From positions 682,001-746,000 of the forward strand of contig NZ_RCWZ01000004.1 of assembly GCF_003675385.1 (NCBI RefSeq): a DNA stretch of 64,000 nt, written 5' to 3'. The translations under genes and the position numbers were made by a program. Below, in pieces: positions 1-64,000 of the stretch. This DNA comes from Mucilaginibacter kameinonensis. Its GTDB lineage: Bacteria; Bacteroidota; Bacteroidia; Sphingobacteriales; Sphingobacteriaceae. Positions within the stretch are counted from its first letter, which is position 1. Every line of letters begins with the position of its first letter. The notes below the pieces were generated by a model. That model made no database searches, was not told where the DNA came from, and was given only the letters and a program-made list of their open reading frames with translations.

Positions 1-938
1 ACATCGCGATAGGAATGTTTATTATCGGTGCCATGGCGCTGAGTTCCTGCTCTACAACCAAGCTTGCATCAAACCAAAGTAATGATGACGTTTATTTTTC
101 TGACGCGCGAGCGGGCGATGAACCTGTTTATGCACAGCAGCCAGCCTACAACCAAACTCCGGCTGCCCAGGATGGGTACAGCGATGACGACGATGACTAC
201 TTTTATTATGATGATTATGCTACACGCATAAACCGTTTCAGCTACTTCTCCCCTTTTGGCTATTACGACGACTTTTACTCAGCATATAACAACTACCCTT
301 ACTATAACTACGGATTAGGCTACGGTGGCTTAGGCTATTATGGCGGCCCTGGCTATTACAGCGGCTGGGATTTAGGCTATGGCTACGGCGGATACGGTTA
401 CGGCTGGGGCCTTGGCTACGGTTATGGTGGCTTAGGTTTAGGTTACGGCTATGGATACGGCGGCTGGGGACACGGCTATTACGGCGGTGGTTACGGATAC
501 GGTGGTGGCTATGGCGGTTATTACGGAGGCGGTTATGCTTCATCCGGTACGGCAAGACCTTACCGTGGCAATGGCAATCCGTTTGCAGGTAGCGGCGGTC
601 GCCCTGTTAGCAGCGCCGTTTCGGGCATAGGATATGTTCCAGGAGGCCGTAACAGACCTCTTGGCAGCCGCACAAATACTTACAGTACATATAGTACAGG
701 TAGCAACGGAAGCAACAGCTATAATAATAACACGGGCACCCGTTACGCACGCCCGGCCCGTACAGATGCGGCTCCTACACGTGACTCGCAGCCTGTTTAC
801 AGGCAACCACAGGTTGAGCGTGCATCGCAGCCTCAACCGTCATATACACCGGCATCATCAAGCTCAAGCGGCGGCGGCAGTTCACGCAGCACCGGCAGCA
901 GCAGCGGAGGCGGCGGTGGCAGACCATCAAGACCATAA
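1..938 (+). CDS. Gly/Tyr-rich lipoprotein, 5' end outside the window
   Basis: The frame is open from base 3, so the true start probably lies left of the window; the first Met inside is at 15. A short hydrophobic stretch ends in LSSC (Cys 12 counted from that Met), a lipobox, so the mature protein should be an acylated envelope lipoprotein. Residues about 20-70 are rich in Asp and Tyr. Residues about 90-175 are almost only Gly, Tyr, Leu and Trp in GYGYGG-type repeats. The rest is a Ser/Thr/Pro/Arg tail. No catalytic domain is visible. The low-complexity core suggests a structural or surface role, which is inference. A FadL-like porin gene follows 33 bp downstream. Confidence 0.75.
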   Translation, partial: IAIGMFIIGAMALSSCSTTKLASNQSNDDVYFSDARAGDEPVYAQQPAYNQTPAAQDGYSDDDDDYFYYDDYATRINRFSYFSPFGYYDDFYSAYNNYPYYNYGLGYGGLGYYGGPGYYSGWDLGYGYGGYGYGWGLGYGYGGLGLGYGYGYGGWGHGYYGGGYGYGGGYGGYYGGGYASSGTARPYRGNGNPFAGSGGRPVSSAVSGIGYVPGGRNRPLGSRTNTYSTYSTGSNGSNSYNNNTGTRYARPARTDAAPTRDSQPVYRQPQVERASQPQPSYTPASSSSSGGGSSRSTGSSSGGGGGRPSRP

Positions 939-971
939 ACCTAAATCTTATATCTTTTTTACCTGAATTTT

Positions 972-2453: not shown

Positions 2454-2696
2454 ACCGTTGATCTTTTTGAGTGATTACTCTGATTGCGTTGATCTGTTCA
2501 GCCTCCCTTTTTATGAAAAAAGGGAGGCTATTTTTTTTATCAAGAATTCAACATTGCGCTATTGTTAGTGACAACACCAACGACGGCGAAAAATCAACTA
2601 TCAAAAAACATCTGCGAAATCAACGTAATCAAAAAAGTCAACGGTCAAAATGTGCCATTATCAGCGAAATCAATGCAATCAAAAAAATCAGCGGTC
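2453..2696. repeat. Three degenerate copies of a TTGATT-type repeat, one inverted
   Basis: A motif close to GACCGTTGATTTTTTTGATT followed by GCGTTGATTTCGCTG occurs once on the plus strand at 2453-2495, starting at the last base of the porin stop codon, and twice on the minus strand at 2612-2646 and 2662-2696. A weaker partial copy lies at about 2585-2609. The 84-codon open frame through this stretch is repeat-derived and not a gene. Similar TTGATT-rich sequence flanks the palindrome at 36565. Confidence 0.7.
2500..2538 (+). terminator. Rho-independent terminator after the FadL-like gene
   Basis: An AGCCTCCCTTTTT arm pairs with AAAAAGGGAGGCT across a short loop and is followed by eight T at 2531-2538. 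Confidence 0.9.
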
Positions 2697-2732
2697 AAAT
2701 AACTAACTTGCCATTCAAAATTTAAATTGACC

Positions 2733-4517
2733 ATGAATAAAAACCTACTTAAAAGCGCGGGCATACTGATGCTGTTGACTGGTATCGGCTTTAATGCCCG
2801 GGCCCAGCAATCTGCCGAAACCAAAGCCTGGGTAGCCAAATCAAACGAGTATACCAAGATCATCATTGATCTGGATAAAAAATATTCGCCCGAATACGGA
2901 TCATCACAGGGGCTGGCGGAGTACGACAGCGATATTGCCGTACCAACTCTGCAAAACATAATGGCCGAGCGTAAGGATGAGGAGGCCGTTGTAGCCAAAC
3001 TTACCGAAGTCCTTAAAACCGAGAAAAATACATTTATCCAACAGGATATCAATATCATCATAACCCATCTTAAATTAGGTTTCCGTCAGCAGGATTTTGA
3101 GCTGAGCCGCCAGGTACCTTTTCTTAATGCGTCATCAACTGTTTACAGCGGTTTGGAAACCCTGCTTGATGATCAAACACCGGAAGCCCGCCGCCAGGCA
3201 GCTGTAATGCGCATCCGTAAATATGCCGGACTTGAAAAAGGCTATAAACCTTTAGCGACTATTTATATGGAGCGCGTTCAACACCAGATGGCAGGTAAAA
3301 ACATGATCTATCCGTCAAAACAACGTATGGAAACCGACCTGTCGCGTAATGCCAGCATCGTAAGCGGTATTGCAGAGCTTTGCACCAAATACAAAGTAAC
3401 CGGCTGGGAACAACCTTATGCTACGCTTAAAAAGCAACTGGAAGATTATGATAAATGGGTAAAAGCAAACGTACTGGTAAAGGCCCGTACAGATTTCCGC
3501 CTGCCGCCCGAAGAATATGCCATGAATTTAGAATCTTATGGCATTGATATCCCTCCGGCCAAGGTTGCCGAAATGGCACACGCCTTATTCAATGAACTTC
3601 AGAATGAAATGAAGCCCATTGCCGAGCAAATTGCAAAAAAACGCAACTTGCCATCAAGCGATTACCGCGCTGTGATCCGGGAGCTTAAAAAAGAGCAAAT
3701 CCATGGTGATTCTATTATTCCGTTGTATGAGCAGCATTTGAAGGATATAGAAGGTATTATCCGCGAGCATCAATTGGTAACATTGCCAAACCGTCCGGCC
3801 ATTATCCGTTTGGCTACTGCTGCCGAAACCGCACAGGGCCCGGCCCCGCATATGGTACCGCCGCCATTCCTGAACAATACCGGCCAGCGTGGTGTATTTG
3901 TGTTGCCATTAAATATGCCTGCATCGCCCGGCGAAAAAGCGACCGACAAATACGACGACTTTACATTTGACGCAGCCTCATGGACCATCATAGCCCACGA
4001 AGCACGACCAGGTCATGAATTGCAATTTGATAAAATGGTAGAAGAAGGCGTATCGCAAGCCCGCGCGCTGTATGCCTTTAACTCAACCAATGTTGAGGGC
4101 TGGGGCTTATACTCTGAATACATCACCCGCCCTTATATGCCTTTAGAAGGTCAGCTGGTATCGTTAGATTACCGCCTGCTCAGGGCAGCCCGCGCTTTCC
4201 TCGACCCGGAATTACAAGCCGGCAAAATAACCCAGCAGCAGGCTCTTGATGTGCTGATGAACGATGTTGTACAATCGCGCGCGTTTGCCCGTCAGGAGGT
4301 TGAACGTTATACCATTAACGCTCCTGGCCAGGCTAACAGCTATTTTTATGGCTTTACCAAAATGATTGCCCTGCGCAAGGATACCGAAGCCGCTTTAGGC
4401 AGCAAATTCAACGTCTTGCATTTCCATGATTTTATCCTGTCGCAGGGTATCCTGCCTCCGGCCTTGATCCGCGAAGCGGTTATGAATGATTTTGTTCCGA
4501 AAGAGAAAGCTTTGTAA
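2733..4517 (+). CDS. DUF885 family exported protein (putative metallohydrolase)
   Basis: A 594-residue protein. I use ATG 2733 rather than TTG 2727 because it gives a clean signal peptide (MNKNLLKSAG...NARAQ). The C-terminal half carries HEARPGHELQ, an HExxxGH-like zinc-site motif typical of DUF885 proteins, followed by NVEGWGLYSEY with a downstream conserved Glu. Family members are large, mostly helical putative metallopeptidases of unknown substrate, found in the periplasm of Bacteroidota. Length is normal for the family. It stands alone between a terminator upstream and another downstream. Function beyond predicted hydrolase is unknown. Confidence 0.85.
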   Translation: MNKNLLKSAGILMLLTGIGFNARAQQSAETKAWVAKSNEYTKIIIDLDKKYSPEYGSSQGLAEYDSDIAVPTLQNIMAERKDEEAVVAKLTEVLKTEKNTFIQQDINIIITHLKLGFRQQDFELSRQVPFLNASSTVYSGLETLLDDQTPEARRQAAVMRIRKYAGLEKGYKPLATIYMERVQHQMAGKNMIYPSKQRMETDLSRNASIVSGIAELCTKYKVTGWEQPYATLKKQLEDYDKWVKANVLVKARTDFRLPPEEYAMNLESYGIDIPPAKVAEMAHALFNELQNEMKPIAEQIAKKRNLPSSDYRAVIRELKKEQIHGDSIIPLYEQHLKDIEGIIREHQLVTLPNRPAIIRLATAAETAQGPAPHMVPPPFLNNTGQRGVFVLPLNMPASPGEKATDKYDDFTFDAASWTIIAHEARPGHELQFDKMVEEGVSQARALYAFNSTNVEGWGLYSEYITRPYMPLEGQLVSLDYRLLRAARAFLDPELQAGKITQQQALDVLMNDVVQSRAFARQEVERYTINAPGQANSYFYGFTKMIALRKDTEAALGSKFNVLHFHDFILSQGILPPALIREAVMNDFVPKEKAL

Positions 4518-4536
4518 GCGTATTCCTATTTCTACA

Positions 4537-4580
4537 AACAAGATCGCCGAATAGTTAAACTATCCGGCGGTCTTGTTTTA
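4537..4580 (+). terminator. Rho-independent terminator after the DUF885 gene
   Basis: AACAAGATCGCCGaatag pairs with ctatCCGGCGGTCTTGTTTT; the hairpin begins 20 bp after the stop codon and ends in a T-rich run. Confidence 0.85.
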
Positions 4581-4587
4581 TTCTCCG

Positions 4588-4709
4588 TGTCATTTCGAAA
4601 CGAGGAACGAGTGAGAAATCTTATACGCCATGCTTATCCGATCAACAAGGCGTACAAGATTTCTCCTTCGCCCCAAAGCGCTTTCCTCCCCTGCTCTCTC
4701 GAAATGACA
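4588..4709. repeat. Palindromic repeat family B, copy 1
   Basis: The ends TGTCATTTCGA and TCGAAATGACA are inverted, and the inner arms GAGAAATCTTATACGC and GTACAAGATTTCTC also pair. The same arrangement recurs at 27921-28080. It sits in the gap between convergent genes. It has no coding capacity, so it is a MITE- or REP-like element. Confidence 0.85.
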
Positions 4710-4718
4710 ATTCTTTTT

Positions 4719-5498
4719 TTACTTCTTCGCCTGTTTCAGCAGCCATTGCGCTACATCATTTGCAGCCTTGTCATTCTCGTATCCAGCGGGTAATCTTCCG
4801 TTCACATATTCATTATACAACCAGGGGTCGCCAACGGCTATTACGGTTCCTTTGCCGTATTTGGCCGATGCTATTATAGTTGCCCCTTCCTTGTTTTTGA
4901 GTACGGATACGGCAGCACCGCTTAAGCCTATCGAACAGGCATCCTTCATGAAAACTTTGATCGCGGTTTTCAAAACCGGGTTGTTTTTAACATAAACGGC
5001 ACCATCTTCAAAGTGGGCATCATCAATTACGTGGTTTTGCAGATCATTATTAAAATGCATCCCGAACTTAGCGGCGAGATTATTAAAATGAGGTAGCTCA
5101 ACGTTAACACTGTCATTGGCCATCATCAGTAACACGCCACCCTTTTTAACCCAGGCTGCAATTTGCTCAATATCATTTTCCTGGATATAGTTAGGATTTG
5201 GGCTTTCCTTTTTGGTATCCGGGTCAACAATAATGTAAACCGACGATCCCTTCAGGTTTTCCAATGTCGGCGCAACGCCAAGCGTATCCAGCTTAGCCCC
5301 GCGACTTGTAAAAGCTTCACCAAAAATCTTGAAACCGTTGTTATCCGTTTCATCCCACAGGTAATGAAAACGCTCGGGTTGACCGTTTGCACCTTTGTGT
5401 ACCTCGTGATTAAAATAATAATCGAGGGTTACGGTTTGGGCGTTTGCGGCAAAACCTGCAAGGGTGAATAATGTGATGATTGATGATTTGAGTTTCAT
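4719..5498 (-). CDS. Exported DUF4350-like protein linked to uronate genes
   Basis: A 259-residue protein with a signal peptide (MKLKSSIITLFTLAGFAANAQ). Its body resembles the class I glutamine-amidotransferase-like fold of DUF4350/GldG-type domains: a segment SSVYIIVDPDTKKE, then IAAWVKKGGVLLMMAND, then NLAAKFGM, and near the end GKGTVIAVGDPWLYNEY. No catalytic Cys is evident, so binding rather than catalysis is likely. In Bacteroidota such domains are often found beside or fused to unsaturated-uronidase genes (family knowledge). It lies downstream of kduI and the SDR on the same strand, 465 bp away with a repeat in between, so co-transcription is uncertain. Exact role unknown. Confidence 0.65.
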   Translation of the reverse strand: MKLKSSIITLFTLAGFAANAQTVTLDYYFNHEVHKGANGQPERFHYLWDETDNNGFKIFGEAFTSRGAKLDTLGVAPTLENLKGSSVYIIVDPDTKKESPNPNYIQENDIEQIAAWVKKGGVLLMMANDSVNVELPHFNNLAAKFGMHFNNDLQNHVIDDAHFEDGAVYVKNNPVLKTAIKVFMKDACSIGLSGAAVSVLKNKEGATIIASAKYGKGTVIAVGDPWLYNEYVNGRLPAGYENDKAANDVAQWLLKQAKK

Positions 5499-5813
5499 TG
5501 TAGGTTTATTATTGGGTTAGCTTTCGGTAGGCGTTATTAACTTTTATTATCTGTTTTTCCATGTGTTCAACTTTTAAAGTGTAAACACCCTCACTTATTT
5601 CAAAAACAAAACACCACTGATAATCAATAAGTTGAATTTTATAAAAACAGTTACTTTAGCAAAATCGAACACATCAACGCTGACAATCAACAAGTTACAT
5701 TTAAGCGAAATAAAAAATTGAACACCCGTTTTTCAGAAATTGAACACTCATTTCCGGATGCAATTTTGCAGCTTGTGGCCAGCATTATTACAACAACTAT
5801 TCCGATGATTTAT
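5499..5813. other. Intergenic AT-rich region, no gene seen
   Basis: Upstream of the DUF4350-like gene. It contains two near-copies of ATTGAACAC about 25 bp apart (around 5716 and 5740) and several TTGAA/TTCAA boxes, but no promoter with both elements and no convincing reading frame. A TTG-started frame of 81 codons runs into repeat C and is not supported. Confidence 0.5.
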
Positions 5814-5933
5814 AATTCCCTCCCTCGGGAGGGGTGCGGCTGGATGTGTGATGCAGGGAGGGGTTTATTCGCTTTGCTAAATGTTTTACATAGCGACGAA
5901 ACCCCTCCCTACACCCTCCCAGGGGAGGGAATC
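5814..5933. repeat. Palindromic GC-rich repeat family C, copy 1
   Basis: Left arm ATTCCCTCCCTCGGGAGGGG and right arm CCCTCCCAGGGGAGGGAATC are inverted. An inner pair GGGAGGGGTTT / GAAACCCCTCCC lies between them. The same plan and the same right-end GGAATCGCAC recur at 63634-63746. It lies between the SDR stop and the DUF4350-like gene. Confidence 0.8.
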
Positions 5934-5963: not shown

Positions 5964-6779
5964 TTACACCCCGCCAAAAATCGAGAACCCGCCGTCAACG
6001 CAGATCATCGAACCGGTTACAAATGCCGAGGCGTCGCTTAGTAGCCATACCAAGGCGCCTTTCAGCTCATCGGCCTGACCAAAGCGTTTAAATGGCGTTT
6101 GTTTGATCACCAGCTCGCCGCGTTGGGTATATCCGCCCTCGGGTTTGGTTAGCAGGTTACGGTTTTGTTCGGTAAGGAAAAAACCTGGGGCCAATGCGTT
6201 CATCCTGATCTTGTCGCCATGACGGTTAGCCAGTTCAACGGCAAACCATTGGTTATAGCAATCAACAGCGGCTTTACCCATATTGTAGCCTAAAACTTTA
6301 GTAATGGCCCTTTTGCTGTTCATGGATGATATATTAACAATGCTGCCTTTACCTGTTTGGGCAATGGCTTCGCCAAAAACCTGTGTAGGGATTAGTGTGC
6401 CCCAAAGGTTCAGATCCATCACTTTTTTCATCCCTTCGATATTCATTTTAAAAATATCCTCGTCGGGCTGCAAAACACCTTCGGGCATGTTACCACCGGC
6501 GCCATTTACCAGGCCATCTATCCTGCCGAAAGCTGCCAGCAATTTATCTTTAGCGGCCACCAGTTCAGCCTCATTCATCACATCAGCTACCAGGGCAATA
6601 GCCTTACCGCCTGCCTGGTTTATCGCGTTAGCACGCTCTTCTGCTACCTGTGCATTACGACCCAGGATACCTACGGCACCTCCGGCTTCAACAATGCCAT
6701 CAATAAACGCTTTTCCTAATATGCCTGTTCCGCCGGTAACTACTATTACTTTACCGGCTAATGAAAATTGATTATCCAC
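5964..6779 (-). CDS. SDR oxidoreductase, uronate (fructuronate/mannonate) type
   Basis: A 271-residue classical short-chain dehydrogenase. The Rossmann motif TGGTGILG is at the N terminus, NGAGG replaces NNAG, Ser is in NISSMNS, and the catalytic pair is YNMGK; the C terminus ends with VDGGFSIFGGV. The start is GTG at 6779, since a stop codon lies directly upstream. Close relatives in Bacteroidota are annotated as fructuronate or 2-keto-3-deoxy-sugar reductases and are encoded next to kduI, as here (31 bp gap, same strand). The likely role is NAD(P)H-dependent reduction of the keto-uronate made by the isomerase, in the cytoplasm. Substrate assignment is inference from context. Confidence 0.85.
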   Translation of the reverse strand: MDNQFSLAGKVIVVTGGTGILGKAFIDGIVEAGGAVGILGRNAQVAEERANAINQAGGKAIALVADVMNEAELVAAKDKLLAAFGRIDGLVNGAGGNMPEGVLQPDEDIFKMNIEGMKKVMDLNLWGTLIPTQVFGEAIAQTGKGSIVNISSMNSKRAITKVLGYNMGKAAVDCYNQWFAVELANRHGDKIRMNALAPGFFLTEQNRNLLTKPEGGYTQRGELVIKQTPFKRFGQADELKGALVWLLSDASAFVTGSMICVDGGFSIFGGV

Positions 6780-6810
6780 TTAAATTATATTTTTCGGGTT
6801 GATTGTATGA

Positions 6811-7665
6811 TTATTTCAGATCTGTTATCGCGATGGCATCCATATCGGTATAATCCAGGTTTTCGCCTGCCATACCCCAAATAAAGCTATAGTTTGATGT
6901 ACCACTGCCCGAGTGAATACTCCATGGCGGCGATACCACAGCATCATAGTTATCCATAGTGATATGTCTGGTTTCCTGCCCCTCGCCCATGTAATGGAAA
7001 ATCTTTTGTCCTGCAGGCACATCGAAATAAAAATAAGCCTCCATACGGCGGTCATGCACGTGTGCAGGCATGGTATTCCAAACACTGCCCTCGTGCAGTA
7101 TGGTTAAGCCCATCACCAGCTGGCAGCTTCTTACACCTTCCAGGTGGATGTATTTATTAATGGTACGCTTGTTTGCCGTAGCTATTGAACCCAGTTCAAC
7201 TTTAACAGCATCGGCATGGGTAAGCTGCGTTGTAGGGTAAACCGCGTGTGCCGGCGACGATAACAAATAAAATACAGCAGGTACCGAGGCATCCTTGCTT
7301 TCAAAAGTTACGCTCTTAGTCCCTTTGCCAATGTACAGGCAATCCAGTTTGTTCATTTCAAAGGCCTGACCGTCGGCTTTTATGACGCCGGCACCGCCTA
7401 CGTTGATGATGCCTATCTCGCGGCGCTCTAAAAAATATTCGGCGCGTAGGTTTGGGTAGTTTGGCAACTCAAGTGTTTTGCTTACCGGGTTGGCCATGCC
7501 TACAATCATCCTATCGTAATGGGTATAGGTACAATTGATCTGATCGGCCTGTACCTGTTTATCAATCAAAAATCGTTCACGTATGGTGGTGGTATCGTAG
7601 CTTTTAAAATCCGATGGGTGGACGCTGTGTATTGTTTTCAAAGCAAATGTTGTTTTAGAAGACAT
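6811..7665 (-). CDS. kduI: 5-dehydro-4-deoxy-D-glucuronate isomerase (KduI)
   Basis: A 284-residue cupin-fold isomerase of the usual length. It interconverts 5-keto-4-deoxyuronate and 3-deoxy-D-glycero-2,5-hexodiulosonate in pectin and glycosaminoglycan breakdown. The zinc ligands are visible in PAHVHDRRMEAYFYF (His, His and Glu with H-x-H-x4-E spacing as in E. coli KduI) and in WSIHSG (fourth His). Starts at ATG 7665. It is the first gene of a minus-strand set with the SDR at 5964. The divergent promoter region up to 7908 holds two inverted repeats that may be operators. No lyase, SusCD pair or transporter is in the window, so this is only part of a uronate-utilisation pathway. Confidence 0.93.
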   Translation of the reverse strand: MSSKTTFALKTIHSVHPSDFKSYDTTTIRERFLIDKQVQADQINCTYTHYDRMIVGMANPVSKTLELPNYPNLRAEYFLERREIGIINVGGAGVIKADGQAFEMNKLDCLYIGKGTKSVTFESKDASVPAVFYLLSSPAHAVYPTTQLTHADAVKVELGSIATANKRTINKYIHLEGVRSCQLVMGLTILHEGSVWNTMPAHVHDRRMEAYFYFDVPAGQKIFHYMGEGQETRHITMDNYDAVVSPPWSIHSGSGTSNYSFIWGMAGENLDYTDMDAIAITDLK

Positions 7666-7707
7666 TGGTTAATAACTACAATTCTACAACGTTAAAAAGT
7701 ATTAAAA

Positions 7708-7723
7708 AAGGTATCCATACCTT
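7708..7723. promoter_or_regulatory. Inverted repeat AAGGTATCCATACCTT, candidate operator
   Basis: A perfect 7-bp inverted repeat with a 2-bp spacer lies 43 bp upstream of kduI. It has the look of an operator for a dimeric regulator; the GGTAT..ATACC core resembles GntR-type uronate regulator sites in proteobacteria, but that parallel is inference. Confidence 0.45.
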
Positions 7724-7734
7724 ATTTTCACTCA

Positions 7735-7790
7735 AACGTTATAGTTTATCTGCCGTACCTTAGCGCTAATAAAAATTAAACTATAACGTT
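7735..7790. promoter_or_regulatory. Perfect 14-bp inverted repeat in divergent uronate promoter region
   Basis: AACGTTATAGTTTA at 7735-7748 is repeated inverted as TAAACTATAACGTT at 7777-7790, with 28 bp between. The spacer contains TACCTTAG (7756-7763), one mismatch from the -7 consensus TAnnTTTG on the plus strand. Paired operator half-sites around a promoter for the YhcH-family gene, kduI, or both, is the simplest reading. Confidence 0.55.
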
Positions 7791-7908
7791 AAAGTAAATA
7801 TTTAACGGTTAGTATATTGTTTTATTTATTTAAGCTTGTATAATTGAATGCCTTAACCAGAATCCGTTACCGCGCTGCCAATTCAATAACCGATAAATAA
7901 TTAAAACT

Positions 7909-8523
7909 ATGAAACATTTAACAACTTATAAAAATATCATGTTGCTAATACTTTTTTCGCTTACAGCTGCGGGTGCTTCGGCTCAACAGCAGGACATTAC
8001 GGCAAAAAGCGCCAAAACCTGGGTTAAAAGCCGCGTTTGGGCCAATGGCCTTAAACTGAAGTTAAACTCATCAACCAATGATGTGGAGTTTGCAAAACAA
8101 TACGCTGCAAACAAATCCGCTTGGGATAAAGCGTTTGAATTTCTTCGCGAACGTAACCTCGAAACTATAGAACCAGGCAAATACACTATTGATGGCGATA
8201 ACGTTTATGCCATGATCACCGAAGGCCCCTCAAAAGAGCCTGAACAGGCAGCTTGGGAATCGCACCAAAACTATATCGACGTGCAGTACGTGATCAAAGG
8301 AAAAGAAAAAATTGGCGTTGCACCTATTGAAAGCCTTACTGTAACCAAACCTTACGACGCTGAAAAAGATTTCGCGAATTACAGCGGCGAAGGCAAATAT
8401 TACACCGCTACTCCCGATGAGTTTTTCCTGTTTTTCCCAAGTGATGGTCACAGGCCTAATATGAAGGTTAATGGCTATGATAAGGTAAAGAAACTGGTTA
8501 TTAAGGTTAGGGAGATAAAGTAA
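7909..8523 (+). CDS. YhcH/YjgK/YiaL family protein with signal peptide
   Basis: A 204-residue protein. Residues 1-25 form a signal peptide (LLILFSLTAAGASAQ), and the rest is a DUF386 cupin-like domain with the characteristic WESHQNYIDVQYVIKGKE segment and the late FFPSDGHRPNM metal-site segment (His and Glu/Asp ligands). Family members are associated with sialic acid, uronate and other acidic sugar use, possibly as anomerases or isomerases. E. coli homologues are cytosolic; the export signal here puts the domain in the periplasm. It is divergent from kduI across the operator-like region at 7708-7790, so shared regulation is likely. Confidence 0.85.
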   Translation: MKHLTTYKNIMLLILFSLTAAGASAQQQDITAKSAKTWVKSRVWANGLKLKLNSSTNDVEFAKQYAANKSAWDKAFEFLRERNLETIEPGKYTIDGDNVYAMITEGPSKEPEQAAWESHQNYIDVQYVIKGKEKIGVAPIESLTVTKPYDAEKDFANYSGEGKYYTATPDEFFLFFPSDGHRPNMKVNGYDKVKKLVIKVREIK

Positions 8524-8533
8524 ATTTCCCGTT

Positions 8534-8624
8534 TGTCATTGCGAGGAGGAACGACGAAGCAATCGCATACTATACAGGGCGGACCTGCATAGCATGCGAT
8601 TGCCGCGCTTCGCTCGCAATGACA
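8534..8624. repeat. Palindromic repeat family A, copy 1
   Basis: Outer arms TGTCATTGCGAG and CTCGCAATGACA; inner arms GCAATCGCAT and ATGCGATTGC around CTATACAGGGC. It lies between convergent genes and has no coding capacity. Other copies are at 14072, 22660 (short), 26696, 33211, 35337, 38192 and 55047. Confidence 0.9.
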
Positions 8625-8646
8625 TATTTATGTCTCTATTTATTTT

Positions 8647-9165
8647 TTATACCTGCACCGTTTTCACCAGCTTCCTCACATCAAATCCCTGTTCGGCGGC
8701 TTGCACTACCAGCTGGTTATAGATCTGCTCATCCAGTGTTGAACGGCGACTTATTATCCACAAGTAATTTCTGTTAGGATGGCCTACCATGGCGTAGCTG
8801 TAATCATCGGCCAAAGCTATGATCCAGTATTTGCCTTTAAAGGGCCATTGAAATTGTACGTCAAGCTTGGCGTTACTTGTTTTATCGGCAACAACGGCAC
8901 GGCCTTCAACTATTTTTATTTTATTGTCTTTTATACAACGGTTTTTAACAACGATGCTGCCGTCTTTGGCTAAACCATAGGCCGCTGAAGTAAAGGTGCA
9001 TCCCGATTCAAAACATTGCGGTAAAGCGGCAATTTCAAACCATGAACCAACATATTTTTTCAGATCGACGTAGGGAACAGTTTGCAATGGTTTGCAGCGG
9101 GTAGCCTGCAGGGCCAAAGCTGTTAAACCTAATGCTACAGAGGTTGCAATAATCTCTTTCTTCAT
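8647..9165 (-). CDS. Lipocalin family protein (Blc-like)
   Basis: A 172-residue protein with an N-terminal hydrophobic segment (IIATSVALGLTALALQATRC) that could be a signal or anchor; the Cys at 24 is not in a canonical lipobox. The lipocalin signature GSWFEIA follows (KYVGSWFEIA, residues about 38-47), and the second conserved block YAMVGHPNRNYLWIISR lies in the C-terminal half, as in bacterial Blc and apolipoprotein D. Blc-type lipocalins bind fatty acids or lysophospholipids in the envelope. It is a single gene between repeat A1 and a divergent SDR gene. Confidence 0.88.
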   Translation of the reverse strand: MKKEIIATSVALGLTALALQATRCKPLQTVPYVDLKKYVGSWFEIAALPQCFESGCTFTSAAYGLAKDGSIVVKNRCIKDNKIKIVEGRAVVADKTSNAKLDVQFQWPFKGKYWIIALADDYSYAMVGHPNRNYLWIISRRSTLDEQIYNQLVVQAAEQGFDVRKLVKTVQV

Positions 9166-9246
9166 AAAACATTAACGCCCGGTATGCCCAAAAAGTTTAA
9201 ACCAAAAGCACATTAATGGCAGTCAAACACCATATCATTATTTAAT

Positions 9247-9254
9247 TACCTTTG
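9247..9254 (+). promoter_or_regulatory. Candidate -7 element for the YeeZ-like gene
   Basis: TACCTTTG matches the Bacteroidota -7 consensus TAnnTTTG, 22 bp upstream of ATG 9277. No TTG lies at the usual -33 spacing. Confidence 0.5.
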
Positions 9255-9276
9255 CGCCAAAGCATTATTTTACAAC

Positions 9277-10074
9277 ATGCCCGGTATAACAAACATCAGT
9301 ATTTTAGGCTGCGGCTGGTACGGCAGCGCATTAGCAAAAGCTTTGCTTGCCAGTGGTATGCAGGTAAAAGGCTCAACTACCTCGGCAGTTAAACTTGACG
9401 ACCTGGCGGCCATGGGCATCAAACCTTACGTCGTTAACTTTTTGCCCAACCAGGAGATATATGATGCTGATTTTTTTAACTGCGAGGTTTTATGGATAGC
9501 TATCCCGCCTAAAACCAGAGGTGGCGAAGGGTCTATCTTTTTGGAGAAAATAAAGAGCATCATCGACGCTATAAAACGCCATCAGATCGAAAATGTGGTA
9601 TTCATCAGTTCGACCGCAGTTTATGCCGATAGCAATAAGCATGTAAATGAACAAACCGATCCTCAGCCTAATACAGAATCAGGGCGAATATTATTGGAAG
9701 CCGAAAACCTGTTCCTTGCAGAGAGCGGATTCAAAACAACCATCATCCGCTTTGCCGGCTTGATTGGGCCTGCCCGTAACCCCGGTAGGTTTTTCGCGGG
9801 TAAAAAGGAGATCCCTAACGGGGATGCTCCTGTAAACCTCATACACCTTGATGATTGTATCGGGATAAGCAAAGCTATCTTGGCTAAACAAGCTTTCGGA
9901 TATTTATTTAACGGATGTTCGCCCGATCACCCTGCTAAGGCTGATTTTTATACCCGCGCGGCTATGGATTCGGGGTTTGAAAAACCTGAATTTATACGTG
10001 AGCTTAACGAATGGAAAATTGTGGATAGTTTGAATACCAGTGCGATCCTTGATTATCAATGCAGCAGTTTATAA
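9277..10074 (+). CDS. NAD(P)-binding SDR-like protein, YeeZ type
   Basis: A 265-residue extended/atypical SDR. The N-terminal nucleotide-binding motif is GCGWYGSALA, followed by FISSTAVY and a segment with VNEQTDPQPNTESGR where extended SDRs carry the active-site Tyr, so the canonical YxxxK is missing. This matches the YeeZ/atypical SDR group, which retains the fold but lacks the usual catalytic residues. The C-terminal HLDDCIGI is typical of epimerase-like members. Substrate unknown. It precedes guaA by 75 bp on the same strand, but guaA has its own promoter-like element. Confidence 0.75.
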   Translation: MPGITNISILGCGWYGSALAKALLASGMQVKGSTTSAVKLDDLAAMGIKPYVVNFLPNQEIYDADFFNCEVLWIAIPPKTRGGEGSIFLEKIKSIIDAIKRHQIENVVFISSTAVYADSNKHVNEQTDPQPNTESGRILLEAENLFLAESGFKTTIIRFAGLIGPARNPGRFFAGKKEIPNGDAPVNLIHLDDCIGISKAILAKQAFGYLFNGCSPDHPAKADFYTRAAMDSGFEKPEFIRELNEWKIVDSLNTSAILDYQCSSL

Positions 10075-10082
10075 TCGATCAT

Positions 10083-10137
10083 TTCAATCTCCCATAAAAA
10101 ATCCGAAATCCGGAATCCCAATTTTCAAATCAAAATC
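10083..10137. repeat. Degenerate TCCGAAATCCGGAATCC repeat (family H)
   Basis: AT-rich intergenic run with ATCCGAAATCCGGAATCC. Related sequence recurs at 17982, 39420, 54020 and 54125. No coding potential. Confidence 0.5.
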
Positions 10138-10138
10138 C

Positions 10139-10146
10139 TATCTTTG
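10139..10146 (+). promoter_or_regulatory. -7 element of guaA, immediately before the start codon
   Basis: TATCTTTG is a full match to TAnnTTTG and ends only three bases before ATG 10150. Transcription from it would begin at or next to the A of the start codon, implying a leaderless or near-leaderless guaA mRNA. Confidence 0.6.
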
Positions 10147-10149
10147 CCC

Positions 10150-11679
10150 ATGCAAGAAAAAATCCTCATTCTTGACTTTGGCTCGCAATTCACCCAACTT
10201 ATAGCGCGCCGTGTCAGGGAGCTCAATATTTATTGTGAGATCCACCCATTCAATCATTATCCCGAAATTGACAGCACTGTAAAAGGTATCATCCTTTCAG
10301 GCAGTCCTTATTCTGTAAGGCAGGAAGACGCTCCTCATTTCGATTTTGAAAAATTCCACACCACACGCCCTATTTTAGGTGTTTGCTATGGTGCTCAATA
10401 CGTTGCCCATTTCCACGGCGGCGAAGTATTGCCATCAAGCACCCGCGAATACGGTCGTGCCAACCTGGAATACATTAAACAGGATAATCCATTGTTTAAA
10501 GACGTTCCCGGCGGTTCACAGGTATGGATGTCGCACGGCGATACCATTGCTACCATTGGCGATAACTTTGAGGTAATTGCAAGTACCGATAGCGTTAAAG
10601 TTGCCGCTTACCAGGTTACCGGTACCCAAACTTACGGTATCCAGTTTCACCCGGAAGTTACCCACAGTATTGATGGCAAGCAATTGCTGCAAAACTTTTT
10701 GGTTGACATTTGCGGTTGCAAACAGGATTGGACACCAGACTCGTTCATCGAAACCACCGTCGCCGCGCTTCGCGAAAAAATTGGCGATGATAAAGTAGTA
10801 CTTGGTTTGTCAGGCGGTGTTGATTCATCGGTTGCTGCTGTATTACTGCACCATGCCATCGGTAAAAACCTGCACTGTATATTTGTTGATAACGGCCTTT
10901 TGCGTAAGGATGAATTTGAGCAGGTGCTTGAATCATACAAACACATGGGCTTAAACATAAAAGGCATCGATGCCAAACAACGTTTTTATGACGCGCTTGC
11001 CGGCTTAACCGATCCTGAAAAGAAACGTAAAGCTATCGGTCGTGTATTCATCGAGGTATTTGATGACGCCGCGCACGAAGTACAAGACGTGAAATGGCTT
11101 GGTCAGGGTACCATCTATCCGGATGTTATCGAATCGGTATCGGTTAAAGGCCCTTCGGCTACCATCAAATCGCACCATAACGTAGGTGGCTTGCCCGACT
11201 TTATGAAACTTAAAGTTGTTGAGCCGCTTAACACTTTGTTTAAAGATGAAGTAAGGAAAGTAGGCAAGGCATTAGGTATCGATCCTAATATTTTAGGTCG
11301 CCACCCATTCCCTGGGCCAGGCCTGGCTATCAGGATTTTGGGCGATATCACCCCTGAAAAAGTGGCGATATTACAGGAAGCCGATGCAATTTATATAAAC
11401 AATTTACGTGCTGCCGGAGTTTACGATAAAGTTTGGCAAGCCGGCTCTATATTTTTACCGGTTCAATCGGTAGGTGTAATGGGCGATGAACGTACTTACG
11501 AAAACGTGATTTGCCTCCGTGCCGTTGAATCGGTTGACGGGATGACCGCCGACTGGTGCCATTTACCGTACGACTTGCTGGCTAAGATCAGCAACGAGAT
11601 CATCAACAACGTAAAAGGAATTAACCGGGTAGTATATGATATCAGTTCAAAACCACCGGCCACCATTGAGTGGGAATAA
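10150..11679 (+). CDS. guaA: GMP synthase (glutamine-hydrolysing), GuaA
   Basis: A 509-residue enzyme converting XMP to GMP with ATP and glutamine. The class I amidotransferase domain spans about residues 1-190, with the nucleophile Cys 79 in GVCYGAQ and the His/Glu pair in FHPEV. The ATP pyrophosphatase domain follows with the P-loop LSGGVDSSV, and the C-terminal dimerisation domain ends in [12 protein letters not shown] 10150 is used because GuaA proteins begin [13 protein letters not shown]; a TTG two codons upstream is not needed. The next gene starts inside its last 15 codons, so coupled translation is likely. Confidence 0.97.
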
Positions 11680-56002: not shown

Positions 56003-57091
56003 ATGTTAAAACAAAACCTAAAACTCAGCATAATTCTACTTTTGCTTTTGTTTGCCAAAAACACTGTAACCGCCCAGGTTAAAAGTGACACCCCTACCCC
56101 TTTTACTGATAAAGATATGGTGCAATTGGATTACCACTCAACAGTTATTGGTGATGATTATACTATCTACATACACTTCCCTCCGGGTTACGATACCACC
56201 AAAACCAAATACCCCGTGTTGTACATGACCGATGGCGACTGGAACATGACTGTTGCCATGAATTGTTTTAACATGCTCAGGCAGGATTACGAAACCACCG
56301 AAGCACTTATTGTAGGCATTGGCTATGGCAACCGCCCCAATCAGCGCAGCCGCGACCTGAACCCGGCAACCGGCGGCCCAAAATTCATTTCATTTATCGA
56401 ACATGAGGTAATACCGTTTGTACAAAGTAAGTACCGTGTAAACGACAATAAAGCCTTATACGGCTATTCTTTTGGTGGCATGTTTACTACGATGGTTCTA
56501 TTTGATCATCCCAGCCTGTTTAACATGATCTTTATTGGAGCGCCGGGAAATAGTGGCAGTGAACTGATCCCTTCGGCCAAAAAATATTTTGCCAATAACC
56601 ATGATCTTAACAGCCGGGTATTTTTAGGTGTAGGTTCTTTTGAGCAGTTAACAAGCAAAAACATCCAGGAATTTAAAAGCTACATGGAAAACCAGCATTG
56701 CCAGGGGCTCGATATCGCCACTGCCATTACACCAAACGCAGGGCATGGTGCGGCCCTGGCACAAGTAATGCAAAACGCAATAAAATTTGCCTATTGCAAA
56801 CTGCATAAAGAAATTAGTATTCCGGTAAAAGACCTGCAGCAATATACCGGCAATTACGTTATAGCCGGGGATACTACCAAAGGCAAATTCAAACTATACA
56901 CTAACGATAACAAACTTTATTTCGCAAATAACGGGCAACTCCCTATAGCCTTTGTACCATTTGCTAAAGATTCATTTTTCATGTACGAAAACGAAAGGGA
57001 TGAGATTTTCTTTCATAAAGAAGCCGGTAAGTTGTATATGCTTTATAGTCCGCTTCATGAAAAACCAACAAGACTGGATAAAGTGAAATAA
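56003..57091 (+). CDS. Exported esterase family (alpha/beta hydrolase) protein
   Basis: A 362-residue protein with signal peptide (LSIILLLLLFAKNTVTAQ). The esterase-D/Fes-like domain has YPVLYMTDGDWN, the nucleophile elbow GYSFGGM (Ser) and the His in NAGHGAAL. The C-terminal 90 residues (LQQYTGNYVIAGDTTKGKFK) form a small beta domain like those appended to Bacteroidota peptidases and esterases. Possible substrates are siderophore or carbohydrate esters; not determinable. Nearly abuts (11 bp) the convergent YdeI-like gene. Confidence 0.85.
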   Translation: MLKQNLKLSIILLLLLFAKNTVTAQVKSDTPTPFTDKDMVQLDYHSTVIGDDYTIYIHFPPGYDTTKTKYPVLYMTDGDWNMTVAMNCFNMLRQDYETTEALIVGIGYGNRPNQRSRDLNPATGGPKFISFIEHEVIPFVQSKYRVNDNKALYGYSFGGMFTTMVLFDHPSLFNMIFIGAPGNSGSELIPSAKKYFANNHDLNSRVFLGVGSFEQLTSKNIQEFKSYMENQHCQGLDIATAITPNAGHGAALAQVMQNAIKFAYCKLHKEISIPVKDLQQYTGNYVIAGDTTKGKFKLYTNDNKLYFANNGQLPIAFVPFAKDSFFMYENERDEIFFHKEAGKLYMLYSPLHEKPTRLDKVK

Positions 57092-60003: not shown

Positions 60004-60387
60004 TTACCAAACAACGCTCGCCGGATAGGCTTTAAAGTGCTGATCGGCCGAAATGATAGTAAGATTTTCAGAGATAGCCTGGGAGATAATGAGACGATCA
60101 AAAGGATCTCCGTGATGATGGGGCATAGACGTTAATTTACTTAAATGATAAGGCGTTATATCAAGAATCTCAAATTGCTTCCCTATCAGATAGCTATAAA
60201 AATTTTCATAGCCAATTTCGATATCAAGCTTTTTTAAAGCAACCTTAATAGCCATCTCCCATAGCGATGCCATGCTTATATAGCATTGATTAGCGGGATC
60301 TTCAATTAGTTGTTTGGCTGTTTTAGATAATCTATCATCAGAAGCCTGGAACCAAAGGATTGCTTGTGTATCTATAAGCAATTGCAT
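60004..60387 (-). CDS. PIN-domain toxin (VapC-like)
   Basis: A 127-residue PIN nuclease. The acidic active-site residues are visible as Asp in LLIDTQAIL, Glu in SLWEMAIK, Asp in DPFDRLII and Asp in IISADQHF. It probably cleaves RNA when freed from its antitoxin. Its ATG overlaps the stop of the DUF2281 gene by one base, the standard toxin-antitoxin arrangement with the antitoxin first. Confidence 0.9.
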   Translation of the reverse strand: MQLLIDTQAILWFQASDDRLSKTAKQLIEDPANQCYISMASLWEMAIKVALKKLDIEIGYENFYSYLIGKQFEILDITPYHLSKLTSMPHHHGDPFDRLIISQAISENLTIISADQHFKAYPASVVW

Positions 60388-60642: not shown

Positions 60643-61458
60643 TTATCTCCCAAAAGCCCAAACCAAAAACTTGGCCATTGCTTTACCCCAGGTAGCGGTG
60701 TCATGGGTACCTCCTATTATTTCAACATATTGAATTTCGTCCGGGCGTTTAAAGCCTTTGACTTCCATTTCTTTGATCAGGTCGATAGTATCATCAATGG
60801 CGTCAATAATTCCGTTTTTATTGCGGTCGCTGGTTTCATCTTTGGTGCCGGTTTGCAGCCAGGCGTTGATAGCCGGTTTGGTTTTAGTTTCCCGTATCGC
60901 CTGGTGCATCAGCCTGTCTGCATCAGTATAGCCTTTGGCAAGGTCTTTTCCCCTCCACCAAAATGAACCAGAAAAAACACCCGTTTTATTAAACAATGCA
61001 GGGTTGTTCCAAACAATATCAAAAGCTGATAAACCGCCAAGCGAAAAACCTGCGAATGCAGTGGTATCAAATTCATTAAAGCCAGTTAGCTGTTGCAACT
61101 GCGGCAGTAATTCTTCTTTTATAAATTGTGTATACACATCGGCTTTAGCACCGCGGCCTTTAAAATCGGGCTTGCCGGCAATGCCATATTCGTCAAGGCG
61201 GTTATCACCAGCATGAATTGCAACAACCAAAACTGGTTTAAGGCGATTGGTATTATATAATGTTTCGAGCGTGTTTCTTAACCCCAGGTTTTCAAGCTCA
61301 TGACCATCGTTGAGCAACAGCAGGTTCAGCGGTTCGGCAATATCACTGTCTTCGGGTTTCAGGATGGTTAAAGTTACTTCCCGCTCAAGCAGCGCAGAGG
61401 TTATATTTATTTCTTGTTCGGTTATCGTCATTTCAGTATCAAGCCAGCCCGGGTACAT
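60643..61458 (-). CDS. Esterase family protein (Fes-like alpha/beta hydrolase), cytoplasmic
   Basis: A 271-residue alpha/beta hydrolase without a signal peptide. NLLLLNDGHELENLG is the oxyanion region, GFSLGGL carries the nucleophile Ser, and GGTHDTATW the His. It faces away from the esterase/ATP-grasp/GCS2 genes across a 137-bp divergent promoter region, so it may belong to the same system. The start at 61458 is ATG; ATG nine codons later (MTITEQE) is an alternative. Confidence 0.83.
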   Translation of the reverse strand: MYPGWLDTEMTITEQEINITSALLEREVTLTILKPEDSDIAEPLNLLLLNDGHELENLGLRNTLETLYNTNRLKPVLVVAIHAGDNRLDEYGIAGKPDFKGRGAKADVYTQFIKEELLPQLQQLTGFNEFDTTAFAGFSLGGLSAFDIVWNNPALFNKTGVFSGSFWWRGKDLAKGYTDADRLMHQAIRETKTKPAINAWLQTGTKDETSDRNKNGIIDAIDDTIDLIKEMEVKGFKRPDEIQYVEIIGGTHDTATWGKAMAKFLVWAFGR

Positions 61459-61595
61459 CTCTTTCTAAATTAAAATTAAGGGCACAAAAGTAAGCTATAC
61501 TTTTTACTTTTTGGGGCTAAGGATTAATATTATCAGGCTGTTGCCTTTTTCAAACAAACCTCCTAACTTACAATCATTATAAAAACTACACTGCT

Positions 61596-62303
61596 TTGAC
61601 CGAAAAATTTCACCGCTGGCACTCCCCCAACACCAACACCGACCTTGAAATGCTGGTATTCGGCGACCGCGGTTACCCCGTTATCGTTTTCCCTACCACC
61701 AAAGGTCGTTACTATCAAAATAAAGATTTCGGCCTTATTGAGAGCGTAAAATGGTTTGTTGACAATGGTCTGGTGAAGATTTATTGCCCCGATACCATTG
61801 ATGACCGCAGTTGGTACAACAAAGGCATCCATCCGGCCGACAGGGCCAAAACCTATGCCGGGTATGATCGTATGCTGACGAACGAGCTTATTCCCTGGGC
61901 CATGCACGAAACGGGAGTTGGCAAAGTAGCCGTTGCCGGCTGTAGCTTTGGCGGATACCACGCGGCTAACTTCGCTTTTAAGCACCCCGAAAAAGTCAGG
62001 CATTTATTTACCATGGGCGGGGCATTTGATATTAAAATGTTTACCGATGGTTATTACGATGACAACATTTTTTACAATAACCCGGTCGACTTTTTACCGG
62101 GCAACAATCGCCACGACCTCTGGCAAATGAACATTATTCTCGGCACGTCCGAGTACGATATATGTAAAGGGTATAATATCCAGCTTTCAAACATATTAAA
62201 ACAAAAAAACATTAAACATTGGTTGGATATCCGCCCGTTTGCCAATCATGACTGGCCTATCTGGCGCGAAATGTTCCCGCACTATTTATCAACGATTAAA
62301 TAA
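61596..62303 (+). CDS. Esterase family protein (alpha/beta hydrolase) next to ATP-grasp gene
   Basis: A 235-residue alpha/beta hydrolase starting at TTG 61596 (no earlier ATG in frame). VIVFPTTKGRYYQNKDFG near the N terminus, the elbow AGCSFGGYHAAN with Ser, and ANHDWPIW with His. No signal peptide. It is followed after 115 bp by the ATP-grasp gene and then the carboxylate-amine ligase. In this setting it may cleave an ester or amide of the product or precursor; that is inference. Confidence 0.82.
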   Translation: MTEKFHRWHSPNTNTDLEMLVFGDRGYPVIVFPTTKGRYYQNKDFGLIESVKWFVDNGLVKIYCPDTIDDRSWYNKGIHPADRAKTYAGYDRMLTNELIPWAMHETGVGKVAVAGCSFGGYHAANFAFKHPEKVRHLFTMGGAFDIKMFTDGYYDDNIFYNNPVDFLPGNNRHDLWQMNIILGTSEYDICKGYNIQLSNILKQKNIKHWLDIRPFANHDWPIWREMFPHYLSTIK

Positions 62304-62304
62304 A

Positions 62305-62400
62305 GAACCAAGAGATCAAGATTCAAGAAACAAGAAAAGACAATTTAAGAAGCAGGAAACAGGAGGCAAGATATAACACACTGAAACCCCAAAAACAAAC
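62305..62400. repeat. Low-complexity AAGA/CAAGA sequence
   Basis: AGAGATCAAGATTCAAGAAA and similar units between the esterase and ATP-grasp genes. The reverse complement of the same type is at 28100-28140. Confidence 0.5.
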
Positions 62401-62418
62401 AAATAAATACCTACTACC

Positions 62419-63624
62419 ATGAAAAAAATTGGCATCTTATTCGGACAAGAGGATTCATTTCCGCAAGCATTTGTGGATCGTGTAAACCAGAAGGCAGAAA
62501 AAGGCATTAGTGCCGAGTTTGTAAGACTTGATAAGGTTATGCAGGCCGAACCGCTTGACTATGCTGTTATTGTAGACCGTATTTCGCAGGATGTTCCCTA
62601 TTATCGCGCAGCCTTAAAAAATGCAGCTATTTGCGGTACTGCCGTAATTAACAACCCTTTTTGGTGGAGCGCCGACGAGAAGTTTTTCAACAATGCCCTT
62701 GCTGTAAAAATTGGAGTGCCAGTACCTAAAACCGTGATCCTGCCATCAAAAGAACTTCCGGACGATACCACCAATAAATCGTTCCGTAACCTGGCCTACC
62801 CACTTGACTGGAATGGCATTTTCAACTACGTAGGTTTCCCGGCCTATATGAAACCTTTTGATGGCGGCGGTTGGAAAGAAGTTTATAAGATTGAGAATGA
62901 GAAAGATTTTTTTAGCAAGTATGATAAAACCAAACAACATGTTATGATGCTGCAGGAAGAAGTTGTTTTTGACGATTACTTCCGCTGCTATTGCATTGGC
63001 GGCAAACATGTACGCATCATGCAGTATGAGCCGCGCAACCCACATCATTTGCGCTACGAGCACGGCAAAGCGCCTGCCGCCAAAAAACTGCTGGATACCG
63101 TTAAAGACTATGTAATAAAACTAAATCAATTTTTAGGCTACGATTTTAACACTGTTGAGTTTGCTGTTCGCGATGGTGTTCCTTATGCTATTGATTTCTG
63201 CAACCCTGCACCCGATGCCGAAGTAACCAGCGTTGGCCAGGAAAACTTTGACTGGGTGGTTGAAACCGCCGCCGACTACGCCATCGAACGCGCAAAAAAA
63301 CAAAAAGATGGCTTGGACAACCTTACCTGGGGCGAGTTTGTAAAAACATCGGCAGCAAAAACACCGCTGGTAGCGGCTCCACCTAAAGCCGCGGCCAAAG
63401 CCGATGTTACTGTAGCTAAAGTTGAGCATGCTATCGAAGACGAAGGCAAGGCGAAGAAAGCCAAAACTACTAAAGCACCTGCTGCAAAAGCAGCTGCGGC
63501 AAAAGAGCCCGTGGTAACAAAAGAACCTGCAAAAAAAGCAACGGTCGTGAAAGAACCTATTGCTAAAGCAGTCGCTGTAAAAGACAAAGCGGCGCCTAAG
63601 CCTAAAAAGGCAGCTAAGAAATAG
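62419..63624 (+). CDS. ATP-grasp ligase (RimK-like) with histone-H1-like Lys/Ala tail
   Basis: A 401-residue protein. The ATP-grasp fold covers about 1-305: MKKIGILFGQEDSFPQAF, the Gly-rich loop MKPFDGGGWKEVYKI, EVVFDDYFRCYCIGGKHVR, and the metal site EFAVRDGVPYAIDFCNPAP. It should activate a carboxylate as an acyl-phosphate and join it to an amine. Residues about 315-401 are a Lys/Ala/Pro/Val tail (KAKKAKTTKAPAAKAAAAKE and alike), typical of nucleic-acid- or polyanion-binding tails in Bacteroidota, and unusual on a ligase. Next gene: GCS2 ligase (177 bp, with repeat C2 between). Confidence 0.82.
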   Translation: MKKIGILFGQEDSFPQAFVDRVNQKAEKGISAEFVRLDKVMQAEPLDYAVIVDRISQDVPYYRAALKNAAICGTAVINNPFWWSADEKFFNNALAVKIGVPVPKTVILPSKELPDDTTNKSFRNLAYPLDWNGIFNYVGFPAYMKPFDGGGWKEVYKIENEKDFFSKYDKTKQHVMMLQEEVVFDDYFRCYCIGGKHVRIMQYEPRNPHHLRYEHGKAPAAKKLLDTVKDYVIKLNQFLGYDFNTVEFAVRDGVPYAIDFCNPAPDAEVTSVGQENFDWVVETAADYAIERAKKQKDGLDNLTWGEFVKTSAAKTPLVAAPPKAAAKADVTVAKVEHAIEDEGKAKKAKTTKAPAAKAAAAKEPVVTKEPAKKATVVKEPIAKAVAVKDKAAPKPKKAAKK

Positions 63625-63633
63625 AAATTCCAA

Positions 63634-63746
63634 GATTCCCCTCTCGAGAGGGGGCGCGGAGACAGCGAGCGGTGGCAGGGGTGTGTTTATACGATTAGTT
63701 TATCAAAGCAGAAACACACCCCTCCACCCCTCTCAAGAGGGGAATC
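63634..63746. repeat. Palindromic GC-rich repeat family C, copy 2
   Basis: GATTCCCCTCTCGAGAGGGG at the left and CCCCTCTCAAGAGGGGAATC at the right; inner arms CAGGGGTGTGTTT / AAACACACCCCTCC. Right end GGAATCGCAC as in copy 1. Confidence 0.85.
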
Positions 63747-63801
63747 GCACTTCCCCCTCTTTTTATATTTTGAAGAAGAAGAGTACTAACCACAACCAAT
63801 T

Positions 63802-64000
63802 ATGAACGAATTTACCTTAGGCGTTGAAGAAGAATTTATGGTGATTGATCCCGTATCGCGGGAACTTAAATCACATGAGCAAAGAATTGTGGATGCCGCC
63901 CAAAAGATCCACGAAGACCAAGTAAAGGCCGAAATGCACCAGGCCGTGGTTGAGGTAGGCACACATATTTGCCGCAATACCGAAGAAGCACGTAAAGAAG
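63802..64000 (+). CDS. Carboxylate-amine ligase, GCS2/YbdK family, cut by window edge
   Basis: The first 66 codons are present: MNEFTLGVEEEFMVIDPVSR, with the GVEEEF motif that carries the metal-binding Glu of the glutamate-cysteine ligase type 2 fold, followed by ELKSHEQRIVDAAQKIHEDQ and EVGTHICRNTEEA. YbdK-like proteins join a carboxylate to an amine with ATP. The gene is open at base 64000, so the remainder lies outside. Preceded by an ATP-grasp ligase, it forms a two-ligase gene pair. Confidence 0.85.
   Translation, partial: MNEFTLGVEEEFMVIDPVSRELKSHEQRIVDAAQKIHEDQVKAEMHQAVVEVGTHICRNTEEARKE

Follow-up and report, generated by a model that had tools for sequence, protein, structure and literature searches.

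Carboxylate-amine ligases of the GCS2 family make gamma-glutamyl amides, and the enzymes grouped around glutathionylspermidine synthetase (GspS) and eukaryotic glutathione synthetase (GSS) take a gamma-glutamyl peptide and couple its free carboxylate to an amine or an amino acid. Iyer et al. 2009 are said to have predicted amidoligase neighbourhoods in which ATP-grasp and glutamine-synthetase-like ligases lie together with peptidases and other hydrolases. Here we analyse a locus that brings several such enzymes together. It lies at the right end of a 64,000-nucleotide stretch (the window) from the 7.3 Mb genome of Mucilaginibacter kameinonensis, which we followed into the DNA to its right. In Mucilaginibacter it is a series of six genes: a divergent esterase (est1), a second esterase (est2), an ATP-grasp ligase (grasp1), a GCS2 ligase (gcs2), a class-I glutamine amidotransferase (GATase, gene gat) and a second ATP-grasp ligase (grasp2). 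We present strong evidence that these genes form one pathway or functional unit. We believe, at a probability of roughly 0.55, that this pathway makes a small amide-linked (pseudo-peptide) metabolite without a nonribosomal peptide synthetase (NRPS), using a glutathione-like ligase logic but apart from the established glutathione and bacillithiol routes, and that the GATase and the esterases trim or recycle it.

Clusters of amidoligases are an already known kind, surveyed in 2009 (Mol Biosyst 5:1636, cited in PMC4431377). We found no description of this locus in the open-access literature, a search in which the Iyer et al. 2009 survey was not covered. As expected of an NRPS-independent amidoligase cluster, GCS2, RimK-like and GspS-fold ligases lie in one conserved locus. 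A recent parallel comes from the fungal E-64 pathway (PMC12568646), whose Cp1B is an ATP-grasp enzyme of the GSS/YgiC fold that makes a pseudodipeptide without an NRPS, together with an ANL-family amide bond synthetase. Both cases thus pair a GSS/YgiC-fold ATP-grasp with another amide ligase for a short amide product, and the Cp1B structure 9cjn matches grasp2 with a Z score of 21.2. However, Cp1B is fungal, its partner is neither a GCS2 nor a RimK-like ligase, and there is no GATase in the pathway as described there.

The argument for a single pathway rests on conservation. We collected 80 loci with GCS2 as the query, and we surveyed presence with profile searches (E-value limit 1e-3) in an even sample of 198 genomes from one phylum, the Bacteroidota. 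The order given above is kept in most of the 80 loci. Most of the complete ones in Mucilaginibacter, Pedobacter, Rufibacter and Pontibacter have all six genes with est1 divergent; est2 is mostly missing from the loci of the Chitinophagaceae. The survey finds grasp1 in 72 genomes, gcs2 in 62 and grasp2 in 60. gcs2 and grasp2 occur together in 56, with 6 genomes having gcs2 alone and 4 having grasp2 alone (Fisher 2e-37), and every pair among grasp1, gcs2, grasp2 and GATase co-occurs far beyond chance in Fisher tests, which ignore kinship (1e-15 to 2e-37). Because kinship had to be allowed for, we stratified by family: gcs2 and grasp2 are concordant in all 10 informative families by the Cochran-Mantel-Haenszel test, which corrects at the family level only (p 6e-12), and grasp2 and GATase are concordant in 8 of 8.

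The genes are also frequently neighbours. grasp1 and gcs2 lie within 6 kb of each other in 38 of 58 genomes, gcs2 and grasp2 in 34 of 56, and grasp2 and GATase in 27 of 39. Absence of linkage in relatives, the outcome that the earlier note on this DNA had named as fatal to its cluster, was tested, and the linkage is far beyond chance. Yet gcs2 and grasp2 co-occur in 22 genomes where they are not within 6 kb, and in four Mucilaginibacter the grasp2 that is missing from the locus is present at another place in the genome. One family has the locus divided into the sub-operons grasp1-gcs2 and gat-grasp2 (L158/L159 and L165/L166). It is because the co-occurrence persists when the genes are dispersed, and because presence and absence agree within families, that we consider them one pathway. 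A mobile-element origin was rejected: grasp1 and grasp2 have no plasmid match and grasp2 no viral match. Plasmid relatives of GCS2 reach no more than 43% identity, and unrelated genes surround the two that were inspected. In the Mucilaginibacter locus L022 (7833-10671), and with the same genes in L023 and L025, HlyD-type membrane-fusion and outer-membrane efflux genes stand downstream of the GATase in the usual place of grasp2, which is elsewhere. We saw no recurrent conserved transporter in the neighbourhoods, so the transporter that the earlier note looked for to the right is not a conserved member of the locus.

The GCS2 enzyme is the most easily placed of the three ligases. It scores 218 bits against PF04107 (cut-off 21) and 545 bits against the NCBIfam equivalog NF010039/PRK13515 (cut-off 371), its profile matches the E. 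coli YbdK structure 1r8g with an E-value of 7e-56, and it aligns along most of its length with 1r8g and 1tt4. By these matches it is clearly assigned to the GCS2/YbdK carboxylate-amine ligases as a full-length member. The difference from YbdK is one of company, since the operon here also encodes a GATase and two ligases of the ATP-grasp type. Its nearest relatives are in named Mucilaginibacter (95% identity), and it is 73-95% identical among the loci of Mucilaginibacter, Pedobacter, Rufibacter, Pontibacter, Ferruginibacter and other Chitinophagaceae.

The second ATP-grasp is placed by its structure. No Pfam or NCBIfam family matches grasp2 over its cut-off, with PF14403 staying below at E 0.062. 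The AlphaFold model (mean pLDDT, the predicted local distance difference test, 84.8) was compared with solved structures. Over residues 1-398 its matches are YgiC (Z 23.8, 342 residues, 3.7 Å), GspS (23.3) and human GSS (22.0), with further whole-length matches to YjfC, trypanothione synthetase and the yeast and plant glutathione synthetases. Outside the GspS/GSS group the matches drop sharply, the next families having Z scores of 11 and 7. The predicted fold of grasp2 is that of glutathionylspermidine synthetase, YgiC and eukaryotic glutathione synthetase, shared over the whole length at Z 22-24. It differs from these enzymes in having no significant sequence similarity to them, no amidase domain, and the motif IE(L/M)QGFP in the putative metal-motif region; aligned by eye, this motif stands where the E-x-N metal motif falls in 19 of 19 grasp2 sequences. 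A protein of 330 amino acids without a Pfam family recurs directly downstream of grasp2 (L093 13517-14515, L159 8415-9407); a reading of it by eye as a CHAD-domain protein was rejected, Pfam giving it no support.

grasp1 likewise has no Pfam match over cut-off, and its NCBIfam match to TIGR00768 (rimK_fam) is weak, at 1e-7 and 31.6 bits against a cut-off of 143.4. Its AlphaFold model has a mean pLDDT of 70.8, with a core that is fair to good and a disordered tail. Structure comparison via this model matches residues 2-294 to RimK (Z 17.2), LysX/ArgX (16.4) and D-Ala-D-Ala ligase, Ddl (about 15); RimK, LysX/ArgX, the graspetide ligases and Ddl all fall between 15 and 17 with no clear winner. 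The modelled fold is clearly ATP-grasp, of the RimK/LysX type. Unlike those enzymes, grasp1 belongs to a family of its own without a Pfam model, conserves a DFCNPAPD motif close to the expected metal site, and joins a core of about 315 residues to a variable, lineage-specific tail rich in Lys, Ala and Pro. In the window this tail (about residues 320-401) is disordered and resembles histone H1. Among the Sphingobacteriaceae its length varies, being at least 20 residues in 73 of 86 sequences with a median of about 31% K+R; it is AT-hook-like in L101 and absent from most Chitinophagaceae loci and from Pontibacter. Pedobacter sp. JY14-1 has a divergent grasp1 (L072 8826-9938), about 50% identical and without the near-invariant GGGW, WWSADEK and DFCNPAPD motifs, which is possibly degenerating or re-purposed.

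The remaining members are the GATase and the two esterases. The GATase matches PF00117 at 36.6 bits (cut-off 22.8), its triad Cys108/His211/Glu213 is invariant among 20 sequences, and profile searches find it in 50 of the 198 genomes (52 with two very weak matches). In two lineages an M29 metallopeptidase stands in its slot between gcs2 and grasp2 (L147 7348-8367, L173 8296-9324), in genomes that both lack the GATase but have all three ligases. These peptidases are 61% identical to each other; beyond this pair, no full-length relative in the sample exceeds an identity of about 31%. Since an M29 peptidase occupies the same slot in two lineages, the GATase role is perhaps hydrolytic, and the replacement hints at hydrolysis rather than ammonia delivery. 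Four loci from different families also have an Amidohydro_3 enzyme right beside grasp2 or the GATase (L144 7237-8763, L146 4400-5842, L155 4475-6118, L161 8637-10466). Both esterases match PF00756. est1, divergently placed in most loci, has the nucleophile elbow GFSLGG in the alignment, and est2, which opens the forward series in most loci, has the elbow GCSFGG within a conserved alignment; its TTG start is consistent with the starts of its relatives. Inspection by eye found no evident signal peptide in either.

The scheme we propose follows from what these enzyme types do elsewhere. GCS2 would activate glutamate or a similar acid and couple an amine or amino acid to its gamma-carboxylate. grasp2 would then join a second amine or amino acid to a carboxylate, either of the GCS2 product or of a different acid, and grasp1 may add or supply one more amino-acid unit. 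The GATase, or the M29 peptidase in two lineages, would hydrolyse or amidate an intermediate, and the two esterases may act on the precursor or the product, breaking an ester, thioester or amide bond. The order of these reactions and their substrates are what we infer. Taken together, the GCS2 and GspS/GSS enzyme types recall the synthesis of glutathione and glutathionylspermidine, and the product is therefore most likely a short pseudo-peptide of gamma-glutamyl type, or an amine conjugate, that the esterases and the GATase or M29 peptidase would turn over. The earlier note had proposed that the genes make and trim or release a short amide-linked compound or else modify a protein; the small amide product is now the best reading, while protein modification gained no positive support.

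Several observations weigh against this scheme. The grasp2 profile has no significant match to solved ligases among PDB sequences, the best being YgiC at E 1.2, and because of this the substrates of GspS and GSS are not transferable to grasp2. Three Pedobacter keep gcs2-gat-grasp2 with no grasp1 anywhere in the genome; in family f5 it is gcs2 that is absent, next to grasp1, gat and grasp2. The three ligases are thus not an obligatory series, and at least one of them is optional or replaceable. Finally, the GATase is missing from 20 genomes that have the full set of three ligases, and it could be an ammonia supplier instead of a hydrolase.

It is important to weigh narrower products as well as different ones. 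The locus might make a low-molecular-weight thiol, with GCS2 as a glutamate-cysteine ligase, grasp2 as an analogue of glutathione synthetase and the esterases resembling S-formylglutathione hydrolase, which is also a PF00756 esterase. GCS2 with a GSS-fold ligase is indeed the enzyme-fold pair of plant glutathione synthesis. However, bshC, for bacillithiol synthesis, is present in 196 of the 198 genomes and so in nearly all carriers, which means that no substitute thiol is needed; replacement of bacillithiol, which predicts a complementary distribution, is ruled unlikely by the same count. The f5 family has the remaining genes but not gcs2, and no thiol-dependent partner gene was seen to recur in the neighbourhoods. 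We regard a thiol as improbable, though one in a secondary role is conceivable. Polyamine or amine conjugation with recycling would be a special case of our preferred explanation. Here grasp2 would be a peptidyl-polyamine synthetase, GCS2 would build the gamma-glutamyl acceptor, and the GATase would be a hydrolase like PuuD, which hydrolyses gamma-glutamyl-GABA (gamma-aminobutyric acid). YgiC, YjfC and GspS are the closest folds to grasp2 (Z 23-24), and the first two are termed peptidylpolyamine synthetases (PMC12568646). Eukaryotic GSS is near at 22, though, the similarity in sequence to YgiC is the insignificant one given above, and the loci showed no recurring gene for making, importing or oxidizing polyamines; we give this case a low probability too.

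The alternatives that abandon a small amide product fare worse. A protein might be tagged, grasp1 adding amino acids to it as RimK does and the other ligases and hydrolases building and removing the tag. The nearest folds of grasp1, RimK and LysX/ArgX, do act on proteins, and its basic tail in the Sphingobacteriaceae could recruit a macromolecule. Against this, the tail is absent from Pontibacter and most Chitinophagaceae carriers, and Ddl, whose product is a free dipeptide, matches the fold almost as well (Z about 15). The compact operons (gaps of -62 to about 280 bp) also leave no room for a carrier, tag or precursor open reading frame. For a precursor of a graspetide or other ribosomally synthesized and post-translationally modified peptide, or a LysW-type carrier, we note that several genes overlap or lie at most 50 bp apart in L047, L053, L098 and L101 and that no open reading frame of at least 90 amino acids recurs, shorter ones outside the operon not having been searched. 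Tagging seems a slim prospect to us. That unrelated metabolic genes are neighbours by coincidence and inherited together is very improbable indeed: the block adjoins housekeeping genes (typA) in the Sphingobacteriaceae, where vertical inheritance alone could keep the order, but this does not account for co-occurrence of dispersed genes, for concordance within families, or for re-assembly as two sub-operons.

The system also has variants. Families f17, f20 and f28 have a parallel version in which the gene between grasp1 and the GATase encodes another ATP-grasp, the circularly permuted and PF14403-like ligase X (L132 7643-9058, L137 7629-9053, L136 7470-8828); in f17 and f20 an est1-like esterase follows. 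What recurs throughout is a RimK-like ligase combined with a ligase of the GspS/GSS kind, with a hydrolase or amidotransferase that acts on amides and with an esterase of PF00756; most lineages have GCS2 as well. Three families also have, close to the locus, a fourth ligase-like gene of the ATP-grasp_4 type (L132 11136-12314, L167 4396-5607, L168 9345 on the minus strand).

The positions of the genes are collected in the table. The four in the window are genuine, conserved open reading frames and lie where the earlier note had placed its two hydrolases, ATP-grasp and GCS2 genes. The window end truncates gcs2, which extends to window-equivalent 64899. The expectation that more members lie to the right, a glutamine amidotransferase perhaps among them, was borne out by the GATase and a second ATP-grasp, so the two ligases then recognized are in fact three.

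Table. Genes of the locus and its right-hand neighbour; window position = L002 position + 59,999, L002 being the locus with the DNA to the right of the window
Gene	Description	Window or window-equivalent position	L002 position	Strand	Location	Evidence
est1	alpha/beta hydrolase, PF00756 esterase (enterochelin-esterase-like)	60643-61458	644-1459	-		PF00756, 87.8 bits
est2	second alpha/beta hydrolase	61596-62303	1597-2304	+		PF00561/PF09752/PF00756 matches over cut-off
grasp1	predicted RimK/LysX/Ddl-type ATP-grasp ligase	62419-63624	2420-3625	+		fold; TIGR00768 below cut-off
gcs2	GCS2/YbdK-family carboxylate-amine ligase (PRK13515)	63802-64899	3803-4900	+	63802-64000 inside window	PF04107, NF010039
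gat	class-I GATase	65079-65912	5080-5913		outside window, after gcs2	PF00117
grasp2	second ATP-grasp	66033-67226	6034-7227		outside window, after GATase	fold
	GH18-deacetylase-GT2 protein	67513-70968	7514-10969		after grasp2	

The last entry, which in Mucilaginibacter follows grasp2 directly, is a fusion of 1151 amino acids (GH18, polysaccharide deacetylase and a PgaC-like GT2). We rejected it as a member: it adjoins grasp2 in most Mucilaginibacter, is about 4 kb away in some Pedobacter and is unseen in other lineages, and because of this restriction we treat it as a neighbour only. On the other side, a PIN-domain (VapC-like) protein (window 60004-60387, minus strand) adjoins est1, and about 3.5 kb before est1 there is a third PF00756 esterase (56003-57091, plus strand), apparently with a signal peptide; both are outside the conserved block. 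No structured RNA was found at the locus at the gathering threshold.

Identity of 73-95% in GCS2 among genera and families, together with concordant presence and absence, are the marks of a metabolite with a fixed role and not of a strain-specific secondary product. At somewhat below even odds, we tentatively suggest a vertically conserved, phylum-level pathway in which three stand-alone ligases make a new small molecule of the cytoplasm, which might be a gamma-glutamyl pseudo-tripeptide or an amine conjugate with a cofactor-like or protective role, with the parallel ligase X version (RimK-like ligase, permuted ATP-grasp, GATase and esterases) in other families. If this is true, it would mean a new small molecule for a phylum prominent in polymer degradation in soil and water, and it would give a function to two unnamed ligase families, grasp1 and grasp2, and to an orphan GATase.

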